A DNA stretch of 36,625 nt from an uncultured Chloroflexota bacterium (GTDB lineage Bacteria; Chloroflexota; Chloroflexia; Chloroflexales; Chloroflexaceae), in the NCBI GenBank assembly GCA_937120965.1, contig CAKZKA010000027.1, forward strand, positions 1 to 36,625, in the 5' to 3' direction. The notes beneath the pieces are model-generated. The model saw nothing but the letters and a program-made list of their open reading frames with translations, did not search any database and was not told where the DNA came from. The position numbers and the translations under genes were made by a program. This document shows, one piece after another, positions 4,596 through 9,198 of the stretch (its first letter is position 1; every line of letters starts with the position of its first letter).

Positions 4596-5492
4596 ATGTC
4601 GAGCCTGGCTGTGGTTATTCTAAACTACAATCGCGCCGATCTGCTGGCGGATTGTCTGCGGTCGATCTACGCTGCGCCAACGCGCTGCGCGCTCTCGGTG
4701 TGGGTGGTGGACAATGCCTCAACCGATGGCAGCGCAGCGATGGTGCGGGCGCGCTTTCCGCAGGTCGAACTGATCGTCAGCCCGGTGAACGGCGGCTTTG
4801 CCTACGGGAACAACCTGGCCCTGCGGGCCATTCTTGCCGGCCCGGGGGCAAGCTATGTGCTCTTGCTGAACAACGACACCGTGGTGCCACCCGGGGCGCT
4901 CGATGGGCTGGTGGAGTACCTGGAACGCCACCCGGACGTGGGCGTGGTAGGGCCGAAGCTGCTCCTGCCCGACGGATCGCTCGATCTGGCCTGCCGGCGC
5001 AGCTTCCCAAGCCCTGAAGTTGCGTTCTATCGCATGATCGGGCTGGCGCGGCTCTTTCCGCGCCACCCCCGCTTCGCCCGCTACAACCTGACCTACCTGG
5101 ACCCGGACGTGGAGACCGAGGTGGATGCGGTGGTCGGGGCCTGTATGCTGCTCCGCGAGGCGGTCATCCGCGAAGTGGGCTTGCTTGACGAGCAGTTTTT
5201 TATGTACGGCGAGGATCTGGACTGGGCCTACCGGATCAAGCAGTACGGCTGGCGGATCGTGTACTACCCCCGGGTGGTGGTATACCACTACAAGCGCGCC
5301 GCGAGCAGTCGCCGGCCCATTCCGTCCATCCGCGCCTTTTACGACGCGATGCGCATCTTTCATCGGAAGCATTATCGCGCCATAACGCCGGCCCCGCTCA
5401 ACGCGCTGATCGAGACCGGCATTACTGCGAAGGAGTTGCTGGCACTTGGCCGTAATCTCCTCCTCCCCCCAGCGGCGCGCCAGGTCGGTTAA
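4596..5492 (+). CDS. Family 2 glycosyltransferase (rhamnosyltransferase WbbL type)
   Basis: This 298-residue cytoplasmic GT-A fold enzyme transfers a sugar from a nucleotide donor. The N-terminal Rossmann-like start is [15 protein letters not shown], followed by [19 protein letters not shown] and the metal-binding NNDT motif (about residue 90). The acceptor-side segment is [16 protein letters not shown] with its ED pair, then the typical [11 protein letters not shown] tail. The start at 4596 places this canonical N-terminus directly after the Met; the open frame upstream to 4281 is not protein-like. The gene overlaps the next by 47 bases, so they are probably coupled. With the sugar-phosphate transferase downstream it likely extends a lipid-linked exopolysaccharide or glycan repeat. 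The donor sugar is unknown. Confidence 0.9.
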
Positions 5493-6930
5493 GGCGCGCC
5501 CGGCCTTGCGGCCCCGCACCTGGCGTGCGTTATTGCGCTTCGGACTGATACTCTGCGACCTGCTGGCCCTCAACGGCGCGGTCGTAGGGGTGTTCCTGTA
5601 TTTTCGCCCCACGATCGAGGCCGCAGGCGATCGCCTGCCGTCTGACCCCTTAGAGGTCGTGCGCTTCGGCCTGCTCTTCAATCTGGTCGCGCTGGTCATC
5701 TTCGCCGCCAACGGTCTCTACGAGATGCGCCGCGGCGCCTCGCGGGTTGACGAGGCCTTCAAAGTGGTCACCGCGGTATCGCTCGTCGCCGTGGCGGGGA
5801 TCGTGATCAACACCCTGCTCCCCCAACTGGGCGGCCAGGATATGCCGATCACCCGCGACGTGCTGGTCTGGAGCTGGGCGATCGCGATCGGCGCTGGCGT
5901 GCTGCTGCGCGGCATCCATCGCGGCGTGGTCTACTGGCTACGACGCCACGGCATTGATACTCGCCGCGTGGTCGTGGTCGGCGCCCGCGAGCCCGGGCAG
6001 CTCGTCTGGCGCACCATTCGCCGCCGCCCGTCCCTGGGGTACCACGTGCAGGGCTTTGTGAGCGACACGGCGCCGGTCGGGAGCGAAGTGGAGGGGTTAC
6101 CCGTCCTCGGACGCACCAGCCAGCTTGGCCGGGTGGTGCGGGCCACCCAGGCCGACGAAGTGATCATCGCCCTCTCGGGCCGTTCCACCCAGGACCTGCT
6201 GGAGATTATCAGCCTGGCCGAAGACGAGTCGGTGGAGATCAAGGTCTATCCCGACACCTTCCAACTGATCACCAACAATGATATTTCGATCGGCGATCTG
6301 AGCGACCTGCCGCTGGTCTCGGTCAAGAACGCTGCGCTCGACAACCCCTGGAACCGCGCCCTCAAGCGCGCCCTCGATCTGGTGGTGGCAACAACGGTGC
6401 TGCTGATCGGCGCCCCGGTGCTGCTGCTGATCGCCGTGGCCATTCGCCTGGAGTCACCCGGCCCGGCGTTCTTCCTCCAGGAGCGAGTGGGGATGGACCA
6501 GCAACCCTTCTGGATGATCAAGTTCCGCACCATGCGCGTGGACGCCGAGCAACTCGGCGCATGGACCACCCCCAACGATCCCCGCGTCACACGAGTGGGG
6601 CGCTTCCTGCGCCGCACCAGTCTCGATGAATTGCCGCAGTTGATCAACGTGCTCCTGGGCGAGATGAGCATCGTGGGGCCGCGCCCCGAACAACCGCGCT
6701 GGGTCGAGCAGTTCAGCCAGCAGATCCCCCGCTACATGCGCCGCCACAAAGAGAAAGCCGGGCTCACCGGCTGGGCGCAGGTGAACGGCCTGCGCGGCGA
6801 CACCAGCATCGAAGAACGCACCCGCTACGATCTGTACTACATTGAAAACTGGTCCCTGCTGTTTGACATCAAGATCATTCTCCGCACCGTTGTCAATTTT
6901 CTCACCGGAAAGCAAGAAAACGCATATTGA
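5446..6930 (+). CDS. Polyprenyl-phosphate sugar-1-phosphate transferase (EPS priming enzyme)
   Basis: This 494-residue membrane enzyme starts lipid-linked glycan synthesis by moving a sugar-1-phosphate to undecaprenyl phosphate. The N-terminal part has several hydrophobic helices (first near residue 28, from [20 protein letters not shown]). A CoA-binding-like Rossmann segment ([14 protein letters not shown]) follows. The C-terminal catalytic domain begins [18 protein letters not shown] and contains [14 protein letters not shown], the hallmark MIKFRTM at about 357-363, [23 protein letters not shown] and [12 protein letters not shown]. The start is a TTG at 5446 inside the previous gene, with AAGGAG ten bases upstream; no ATG comes before the conserved domain. 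Its position directly after a GT2 gene supports a role in surface polysaccharide assembly. Confidence 0.93.
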
Positions 6931-6955
6931 CGCTTGAGGACAGGGGGTGTATAAT
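6927..6955 (+). promoter_or_regulatory. Consensus sigma70-type promoter upstream of the candidate RNA
   Basis: TTGACG and TATAAT are separated by exactly 17 bases. The -35 overlaps the stop codon of the sugar-phosphate transferase gene. It is the best TATAAT-type promoter in the window, yet no conventional gene follows for nearly 700 bases. Confidence 0.75.
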
Positions 6956-7150
6956 GCACCTCCGGCTGAGCCAATCAGTCATGGTACTCGCGCCCCCCGT
7001 TACGTTTTGGTGACGGGTTTCGCGTTCCGGGAAGGCACCCGGCACAGCGCAACACGCAACACCGAACACGAAACGGATGTCGTCATCACGGCGGTCAGGG
7101 TTGACCCCTTCTTTCTTTCGATGGCGCCGGGCGGGCTTTTGTGAGGGTAT

Positions 7151-7255
7151 ATGGACGTCTGCCAACAACTGCGCGCACTTGCGCTGCGCATTCCGAACTG
7201 CATCGCCATGCGGCTTGCGGCGGGGCAGGCGTCTGATACGCCTAGCTCCGAGTAG
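7151..7255 (+). CDS. Possible 34-residue small ORF inside the candidate RNA
   Basis: An ATG at 7151 preceded by GAGGG (spacing three to four bases) opens 34 codons ending at TAG 7253-7255. The peptide begins MDVCQQLRALALRIPNC and ends ASDTPSSE. It has two cysteines, no clear membrane segment, and I recognise no family. Its codons 2-5 and 25-28 form the two arms of the 10-bp stem, which argues that RNA structure rather than peptide may be the selected product. Confidence 0.25.
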   Translation: MDVCQQLRALALRIPNCIAMRLAAGQASDTPSSE

Positions 7256-7294
7256 CGACGCTCTGAGCGTCCTTCTCCCCCTATTCACCGCAAC

Positions 7295-7321
7295 GCCCTT
7301 GCCGAGGCAGGGGCATTTTTG
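7295..7321 (+). terminator. Rho-independent terminator
   Basis: GCCCTTGCC and GGCAGGGGC (7295-7303 with 7306-7314) form a 9-bp stem with one G-T pair, followed at once by ATTTTTG. It ends the transcript starting near 6962. It lies about 320 bases before the decarboxylase gene, so it is unlikely to be that gene's attenuator. Confidence 0.75.
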
Positions 7322-7362: not shown

Positions 7363-7531
7363 GTGAGGATGTGCCTCACGGTTTGACTCCGTGCGCGCTT
7401 ACGCATCACGCCTCCCGACAGGGTGCGGGTGGGTGCAGGAGGAGCGTGTCCTCCGCTATCCGCTCGCAGGGGTAACGGGGAAACCCGGTTCCCCGCGCCG
7501 AGGGGAGGGTTTGGGAGGGCTGCGCCCTCCC
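7363..7531. repeat. Hairpin and palindromic repeat cluster before the decarboxylase gene
   Basis: GTGAGG/CCTCAC (7363-7379) and GGAGGA/TCCTCC (about 7439-7455) are simple hairpins. They are followed by the family palindrome GGGGAAACCCGGTTCCCC (7477-7494) and a GGGAGGGCTGCGCCCTCC-type palindrome (about 7514-7531). The remaining bases up to 7638 are A/T-richer. A TATATT at 7609-7614 may serve as a weak -10 for the next gene, without a matching -35. Confidence 0.7.
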
Positions 7532-7638
7532 TGGAGCATCGTTTTCATCTTCGTAGTATGTAGCGCATTCGCATGGGTTCTTAATATCAGATAACGCGCA
7601 ACGAATCGTATATTTTGCCTGGGAGGGATCGATACAAG

Positions 7639-9198
7639 GTGAAGCAACAGACCTACGCCGACTACATTCGGGAGCACTTCGGTTTTACGGGTGAGGGTCG
7701 CCTGACCGACTTTCTGAGCCGCGAGCACGGCGAGCTGATGCTGGGCGGCCGGTTGAACCTGTCCGAGCTGGCGCGGAGCCACGGCGCTCCCCTGGAGGTC
7801 GTGTACACACCGCAGATCAGCGCCCAGATTGCCCGGATGCAGCACTGGGCCGAGCAGGCCCGGCAGCGCGCCGAGTACGCGGGGCGCTTTCTCTACGCCT
7901 ACGCCACCAAGGCCAACTTTGCCGCCGAGGCGGTGCAAACGGCGCTGCAAGCCGGGGCGCACTACGAAACGTCCGCCGCGGCGGATGTGGTGATCGCCCA
8001 CGGTCTGTTTCGCCAGGGGCTGCTTGCCGGCGACCGGCTGATCTGCTGCAATGGTTCGAAGGAAGCGGGTTACCTCGACGCCATCCGTGAGCTGCGCGGC
8101 GATGGCTGTAGCAATGTGATCCCGGTGCTCGACGATCTGGACGAGCTGGAGGCGCTGATCGGCAACCCGGCGCCGCTACAGTTCGGGGTGCGCGAGCGCG
8201 CCGCGGGTAACCGTGACGGTACGCATCCGGGCAACGATCGCTTTGGTCTGACCGCGGAGGAGATCGCCGGGGCTGCGGCGCGCATCGCCGACAGCAACCA
8301 CCAGCTCGTACTCTACCACGCCATGATCGGCAGCCAGGTGGAGGACGAGGGGCACTTTCTGGCAACCCTGCGCGAGTCGGTTGAGAACTACGCCCGTCTG
8401 CGGCGCGCCAACCCCACACTCCGCTACTTCAACTTCGGCGGGGGGATGCCGACGTCGGGCTACTACCTGGGCTTCAGCTTCGATTACGAAGGCTTTCTGA
8501 CGCGGCTTATGGTCACCATCCGCGATACCTGCGCCGCTCATGGCGTACCGGCGCCGGACCTGATCGGCGAGTTCGGGCGGTACACGGTGGCAACGCACAG
8601 TGTCGTGCTGCTCGAAGTCGGCGCGGTGAAGCAGGGCCAGCCAGGCGCGCCAGACTGGTACCTGGTCAACGGCAGCCTGATGGTCACCCTGCCCGACTCG
8701 CTGCTGGTTGAGGGGCAGGAATTCGTGATCCTGCCATTGAGCGACTGGGAGCGCCCGGTGCGCCCGGTACGCCTGGGTGGGCGCCGCACCTGCGACAGCG
8801 ATGACGTCTACCCGCGGCCCCATCGCCCGCCACTGATGTTGCCCGACGTTGGCGCGGGCCTGGTGCTGGCGATCTTCGGCGTGGGCGCCTACCAGCAGAT
8901 GATCTCGGGGCGCGGCGGGGCGCACCATTGCCTGAGCCCCGAACCGGCGCGGGTCATCGTGACCGAGCGCGAGGGCCGGCTCGTCTCGCGCTACGTGCCC
9001 CAGCAGGATCAGGCGACGATTGCGCGGTTGCTGGGCTACCAGCCGCAACTTGCGCCGCTGGCGGAGCCGGCAGCCGCCGCCGTGACCGTCCGCCCGCCAC
9101 GGGTAGCGCCGACTGTGGTGGGCGCGGGGGGCTTCTCGCGGCGGCGGATCCACCAGCGCCTGCCACGGCTGACGCCTGTTGTGGCAACGGGGGACTGA
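7639..9198 (+). CDS. PLP-dependent decarboxylase, arginine/diaminopimelate decarboxylase-like
   Basis: This 519-residue fold-type III PLP enzyme has the cofactor lysine in YAYATKAN (about Lys91). The segments HYETSAAADVVIAHGL, LICCNGSKE and FNFGGGMPTSG, a GEFGRYTVATH block and TCDSDDVYP follow; the last holds the substrate-contacting Cys/Asp motif. The CNG-K and CDSDD motifs resemble biosynthetic arginine decarboxylase more than LysA, so agmatine and polyamine synthesis is the favoured role, with lysine synthesis as the alternative. GTG 7639 is chosen because GGAGGG lies 11 bases upstream; an in-frame TTG at 7615 lacks any ribosome site. The last 40 or so residues are Pro/Arg/Val-rich and poorly conserved-looking. 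The gene stands alone between repeat clusters. Confidence 0.75.
   Translation: MKQQTYADYIREHFGFTGEGRLTDFLSREHGELMLGGRLNLSELARSHGAPLEVVYTPQISAQIARMQHWAEQARQRAEYAGRFLYAYATKANFAAEAVQTALQAGAHYETSAAADVVIAHGLFRQGLLAGDRLICCNGSKEAGYLDAIRELRGDGCSNVIPVLDDLDELEALIGNPAPLQFGVRERAAGNRDGTHPGNDRFGLTAEEIAGAAARIADSNHQLVLYHAMIGSQVEDEGHFLATLRESVENYARLRRANPTLRYFNFGGGMPTSGYYLGFSFDYEGFLTRLMVTIRDTCAAHGVPAPDLIGEFGRYTVATHSVVLLEVGAVKQGQPGAPDWYLVNGSLMVTLPDSLLVEGQEFVILPLSDWERPVRPVRLGGRRTCDSDDVYPRPHRPPLMLPDVGAGLVLAIFGVGAYQQMISGRGGAHHCLSPEPARVIVTEREGRLVSRYVPQQDQATIARLLGYQPQLAPLAEPAAAAVTVRPPRVAPTVVGAGGFSRRRIHQRLPRLTPVVATGD

Follow-up and report, generated by a model that had tools for sequence, protein, structure and literature searches.

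The sequence analysed here (the window) is a stretch of 36,625 nucleotides that constitutes contig 27 of a 5.18-Mb Chloroflexaceae genome, with Chloroflexus, Oscillochloris, Chloroploca and Viridilinea among its relatives. The element lies on the forward strand between a sugar transferase gene and a gene for a SpeA-like fold-III PLP decarboxylase (7639–9198; GTG start, Shine–Dalgarno (SD) box GGGAGG at 7621–7626). Its promoter (6927–6955) comprises a −35 box TTGACG (6927–6932), which overlaps the stop codon of the sugar transferase gene, a 17-nt spacer and a −10 box TATAAT (6950–6955), and is conserved in the aligned leaders. Scoring 11/12, it is close to the consensus that an earlier note on this DNA had seen in it. 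It is also the sole promoter-like site on either strand between 6500 and 8000 (0.3 expected in shuffled sequence), and none lies in the gap from the terminator to the decarboxylase gene. The intrinsic terminator on the same strand, GCCCUUGCCGAGGCAGGGGC-AUUUUU (7295–7320), consists of a stem (7295–7314) followed by a T tract; a terminator scan by itself expects 1.3 terminator-like sites by chance, and this one is aligned in the leaders. Promoter, terminator and homologues together predict a leader RNA from about 6962 to 7320, roughly 360 nt long if terminated. Within it, an SD box GAGG (7143–7146) precedes an ORF of 34 codons, MDVCQQLRALALRIPNCIAMRLAAGQASDTPSSE (7151–7255). The earlier note had placed the limits of the unit correctly by promoter and terminator, but had overlooked the SD box, the start codon ATG (7151) and the gene that follows.

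In this genome a repeat copy lengthens the gap that separates the decarboxylase gene from the leader terminator. Interspersed palindromic repeats of the GGGAAACCCGGTTTCCCC and GGTTTGGGAGGGCTGCGCCCTCCC types lie at 7477–7495 and 7508–7531, and copies are also found at 118, 234, 9210, 9272, 16541, 22457, 22505, 22594, 33620, 33660, 34766 and 36515. The two types have 30 and 7 matches, far more than the 0.04 and 0 expected by chance.

The decarboxylase carries the Orn/DAP/Arg decarboxylase N domain (Pfam PF02784), and its SD box and start are conserved among homologues. In NCBIfam, speA models matched best but below their cut-off (124.8 bits versus 369), and lysA reached 83.7 bits. Among PDB structures, arginine decarboxylases are nearest in sequence, and the region of the CDSD motif aligns with them. 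The only other member of this decarboxylase family in the genome is LysA-like, and there is one protein of the agmatinase/arginase family. By sequence likeness, arginine decarboxylation is the likeliest activity. Two genomes contain second copies of the gene (G006:C732:669-2045, locus L140, and G067:C415), which are 50–52% identical, have an in-frame TGA and are apparently decaying paralogues.

The leader folds better than shuffled sequences, though modestly (z −2.5; 1 of 100 shuffles as good). This score is weak on its own; it is conservation in relatives that makes a structured RNA practically certain here, as the earlier note had proposed for a unit of this length. Leader DNA was found in 15 of 41 relatives. 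Fourteen cores were aligned, RNAalifold on these gave a three-way junction, and a covariance model (R1) was built. The covariance search, a check that the earlier note had suggested, matched 28 of the 41 family genomes, with best E-values of 2.6e-56 to 1.2e-36. At default filters R1 had no match elsewhere in the class outside the family; with filters off, many loci of the other families of the order were found, weakly. The Rfam scan, likewise suggested, gave no match at the gathering threshold and none credible up to E=10, and no Rfam family matches the leader versions found across the order either. The earlier view that the unit bears no hallmark of 6S RNA or of common riboswitches thus stands, and known Rfam classes were rejected. 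6S RNA was rejected as an identity: RF00013 is not matched by the leader, and the 6S RNA of this genome lies elsewhere (G000:C142:26253-26422).

All helices are on the forward strand. P0 is a 5′ hairpin, GGYUGA-GCCAA-UCRRYC (6964–6980), in which 98.8% of cells are paired and 3 of 6 pairs show compensatory change. P1 (6987–7145) is the long-range stem that closes the three-way junction; its 5′ strand (6987–6999, CUCGCGCCCCCCG) pairs with 7128–7145 (CGGGCGGGC....GUGAG), and its outer part overlaps the SD box of the leader ORF. P2 (7003–7075) is a long imperfect hairpin with an invariant AAGGCA loop, and P3, the third arm, has a variable loop and pairs 7081–7087 with 7120–7126 (100% paired; compensatory change in 6 of 7 pairs). 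P1 and P2 were both derived from the alignment or its covariation. The earlier note had drawn the P2 hairpin and the terminator stem, both of which hold, but had missed P1. On 27 full leaders, 98.5% of P0–P3 cells are paired and compensatory change affects 13 pairs and 67 cells; shuffles gave 7.5 and 19.2, and slid controls no more than 6 pairs and 18 cells. The three-way junction is also predicted de novo, with each sequence folded without the alignment, in most representatives.

P1 and P2 are mostly invariant within Chloroflexaceae, so most of their pairs are uninformative there. In the other families the sequence of P1 is replaced and its pairing kept: 7.85 of 8 pairs form between a leader's own strands versus 6.40 when strands are swapped, and none of 10,000 permutations scored as high, with strands that were picked by eye, which favours pairing. 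This direct pair count replaced an energy-based test that was uninformative because its segments included P2 and P3. Across the order, the constants are P0, P1 and the SD-ATG block, and the inner arms vary; in nine Chloroflexaceae and in the other families the P2/P3 domain is an entirely different sequence, with the same gene downstream.

In one clade P2 is much more strongly conserved than what surrounds it, yet relatives that carry the same decarboxylase gene lack it. Among eight divergent Chloroflexaceae its mean identity is 88.5%, compared with about 50% for the flanking P3 and ORF. In one leader of the Chloroflexus clade (L091 in G046, within 5028–5355), 7 nt are missing from the apical stem of P2, which is otherwise invariant. 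A phage origin was considered and rejected: a P2-core pattern of 21 specified bases is absent from 2.9 million viral contigs.

The leader is tied to a single gene. It lies upstream of, and on the same strand as, the SpeA-like gene in each of the 37 Chloroflexaceae genomes with this gene, 28 of them identified by R1 and nine with diverged leaders. The latter occupy the same place and have a promoter, P0, P1 (as GCUCAUCUGG/CCAGAUGAGC), an SD box and an AUG-initiated ORF, and nearly all of them a recognisable terminator. The four family genomes without a match to the gene (G013, G018, G042 and G051) gave no R1 match. Homologues of the decarboxylase gene occur across the order at 53–60% identity, and in three other families of the Chloroflexales a promoter, 5′ hairpin, P1, SD-ATG ORF and terminator are present at 34 of 36 examined loci; the remaining two are cut by contig ends, which leave under 370 nt ahead of the gene. 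Wherever the flank is long enough, the next gene on the same strand is this one PLP decarboxylase (starts in Chloroflexus were placed by protein match). The upstream neighbour varies, being mostly a sugar transferase and, in Chloroflexus and Viridilinea, unrelated genes. Because the gene order is constant, we rejected as the best reading an orphan or stand-alone RNA, which the earlier note had preferred; the unit forms the 5′ leader of the gene that follows, in every genome examined in the order, and very probably acts in cis on it.

After P1, the layout is GAGG-N4-AUG followed by an open frame. R1-type leaders and the majority of the diverged ones have GAGG; in some, another AGG box takes its place. 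The ATG with its SD box and the open frame are conserved in position in all leaders; in those other than the window's the ORF has 22–42 codons and always ends before the terminator. Across genera, coding constraint is evident on the N-terminus, MDGxxNL (17 diverged leaders, P=0.002): differing codons have a mean BLOSUM score of 1.37 versus −0.45 ± 0.56, and many differences are synonymous. Other sets gave weaker values, with P=0.19 for column permutation of the Chloroflexaceae set alone, P=0.084 in a further test, and P=0.076 in a Roseiflexus-type set, in which every tested ORF is open and a stop appears in 99.4% of the column-permuted alignments. Indels in the Chloroflexaceae ORFs are mostly multiples of three (the exception is a 4-nt indel in G009), and past its first residues the peptide is poorly conserved. 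Because of this coding constraint and because the ORFs are kept open, the leader ORF is probably translated, and the earlier statement that the unit holds no convincing gene is doubtful. Arginine codons are not enriched (143 versus 144.5 expected), and we therefore rejected sensing through arginine codons; cysteine codons are (80 versus 44.6). The predicted accessibility of the SD box ranges from 0.15 to 0.72 among representatives; sequestration by P1 is weak in some and cannot be taken as general.

The decarboxylase homologue of another family in the class is directly preceded by a leader ORF of a different kind, 24–31 codons long (L161, L162, L167, L168 and L169). Its end is nearly invariant, (I/V)VRHPS(T/A)TAG-stop, and it could be an arrest peptide, to judge by its sequence. 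When 400 genomes of the phylum were scanned with a strict pattern, only one copy turned up, and the peptide has no match in NCBIfam models or the searched literature.

The terminator ends 131–190 nt (median 153) past the leader ATG in 42 representatives; in the window it follows the leader ORF by about 40–65 nt. A candidate antiterminator strand, CUGCAUCGC (7198–7206, forward strand), is partly complementary to the 3′ arm of the terminator (7302–7310), and CUGCAUCG (7198–7205) can pair with CGAGGCAG in the terminator. In the alignment 76.5% of these pairs are kept and there are some compensatory changes, five of them C-G to U-A (in Chloroflexaceae). Duplex energies between the ORF region and the terminator are no better than those of dinucleotide shuffles or swaps (42 representatives, median p 0.50). 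The pairing of CUGCACCGA with the terminator 3′ arm looks convincing by eye, but because its energies are no better than those of the controls we do not claim an antiterminator.

Leaders of related design precede polyamine-synthesis genes elsewhere. In the enterobacterial speF leader, a 34-codon ORF (orf34/speFL) that starts 32 nt from the 5′ end precedes an amino-acid decarboxylase gene of polyamine synthesis, that for ornithine decarboxylase; translation of the ORF, in which two consecutive arginine codons (positions 12–13) matter, governs read-through past Rho-dependent premature termination (PMC6386406). The Chloroflexales leader, also long, shares with it an ORF of about 34 codons, the decarboxylase downstream and a termination point, here predicted, before the gene. 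It differs in that the ORF follows a structured domain of 110–210 nt, in its intrinsic terminator, and in its gene, which encodes a SpeA-like fold-III enzyme. Consecutive arginine codons at 12–13 are absent from the window ORF, and arginine shows no enrichment overall. The alphaproteobacterial speF element (RF00518) is a structured RNA of several hundred nucleotides upstream of a fold-III (COG0019) decarboxylase gene. It has a stem that carries a variable insertion at its top, together with a long stem-loop with bulges, and a published test detected no polyamine binding (PMC1273637). Our leader resembles it in size and in these structural features and likewise precedes a COG0019-type polyamine decarboxylase gene, here SpeA-like rather than one for ODC; unlike RF00518, it scores below the gathering threshold of that family, belongs to a different phylum and has a conserved ORF and an intrinsic terminator. 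It thus resembles both speF leaders in logic and is a member of neither. With the trp, his and ilv attenuators it shares the succession of leader ORF, intrinsic terminator and gene, but it has no run of regulatory codons and no demonstrable antiterminator, and a large structured domain precedes its ORF. The general features of an attenuator are present, namely a promoter, a leader and an intrinsic terminator before the gene, with no promoter-like site between. The element is not described in Rfam or in the searched literature (open-licence papers only, in which absence is not proof), and appears to be undescribed.

Since a promoter, a leader ORF and a strong terminator precede the gene and a second promoter-like site is absent, the simplest reading is that the leader is a cis-acting transcription attenuator with a leader peptide, ahead of the decarboxylase mRNA. 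The anatomy, the covariation, the constant gene order, the co-occurrence with the gene and the coding constraint on the ORF N-terminus argue for this reading, which we favour with reasonable, not high, confidence. Weighing against it are the ORF–terminator pairing, no stronger than in shuffles, the poor conservation of the peptide past its start, the unenriched arginine codons, the varying SD accessibility and the replacement of the P2/P3 domain between clades. That attenuation involves the terminator is likely; dependence on the leader peptide we suppose with moderate confidence. From these observations we infer transcription, default termination, read-through and roles for translation and the peptide as follows. 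Transcription would start near 6962, and the RNA would fold into the 5′ hairpin and the three-way junction, whose closing stem, P1, would end at the ribosome-binding site of the ORF of about 34 codons. By default, transcription would stop at the intrinsic terminator, yielding an RNA of about 360 nt. Some condition would be sensed by the ribosome on the ORF, through nascent-peptide pausing or through altered initiation at the P1-flanked SD box; termination would then be relieved and the polymerase would continue into the decarboxylase gene. Our preferred guess, by analogy with speF (PMC6386406), is that a ribosome pausing at the ORF end, or close to it, would drive read-through. As for the signal, arginine or a polyamine is a tentative guess, made because the gene resembles that of arginine decarboxylase.

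The covarying junction, the near-invariance of P2 beside far more variable P3 and ORF sequences, and the position of P1 next to the SD box would also suit a riboswitch, in which the junction is an aptamer for arginine, agmatine or a polyamine that controls P1 and thereby the SD box or the terminator, with the ORF secondary. Aptamer cores keep their binding residues, but here P2 and P3 are replaced in nine Chloroflexaceae and in the other families, which is evidence against one universal aptamer; no Rfam riboswitch matches, and we regard this explanation as unlikely. Alternatively, an RNA-binding protein, possibly in autoregulation, may recognise P0 or P1 and control termination or initiation at the ORF; the order-wide retention of P0, P1 and the SD-ATG block around varying inner arms is scaffold-like, but the sequences of P0 and P1 themselves vary, and this is distinctly improbable. 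A trans-acting sRNA or dual-function RNA (small protein and sRNA) that is merely a neighbour of the decarboxylase gene would account for the separate promoter and strong terminator, the near-invariant P2 hairpin and the conserved small ORF, but is very improbable given one constant downstream gene across four families behind a varying upstream gene, the lack of R1 matches in family genomes without that gene, and an inner domain that is not conserved order-wide.

Within the attenuator reading, a bolder version is doubtful: that the leader represents a new, order-wide class of leader-peptide attenuator. Here the ribosome-binding site of a sensor ORF would be flanked by a three-way-junction module that can be exchanged, initiation and nascent-peptide sensing would jointly set intrinsic termination before an arginine decarboxylase gene, and the inner module would have been swapped from one lineage to another with the target unchanged.

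The leader probably decides whether the decarboxylase gene is read. The element spans four families of the Chloroflexales and, as Chloroflexus genomes are included, is testable in cultured strains. Because P0, P1, the start site and the terminator persist while the sensory-looking domain is exchanged, the order amounts to a natural experiment that can show which attenuator parts matter. The element would, moreover, be a distant counterpart of the speF leaders, where an upstream small ORF controls polyamine synthesis.
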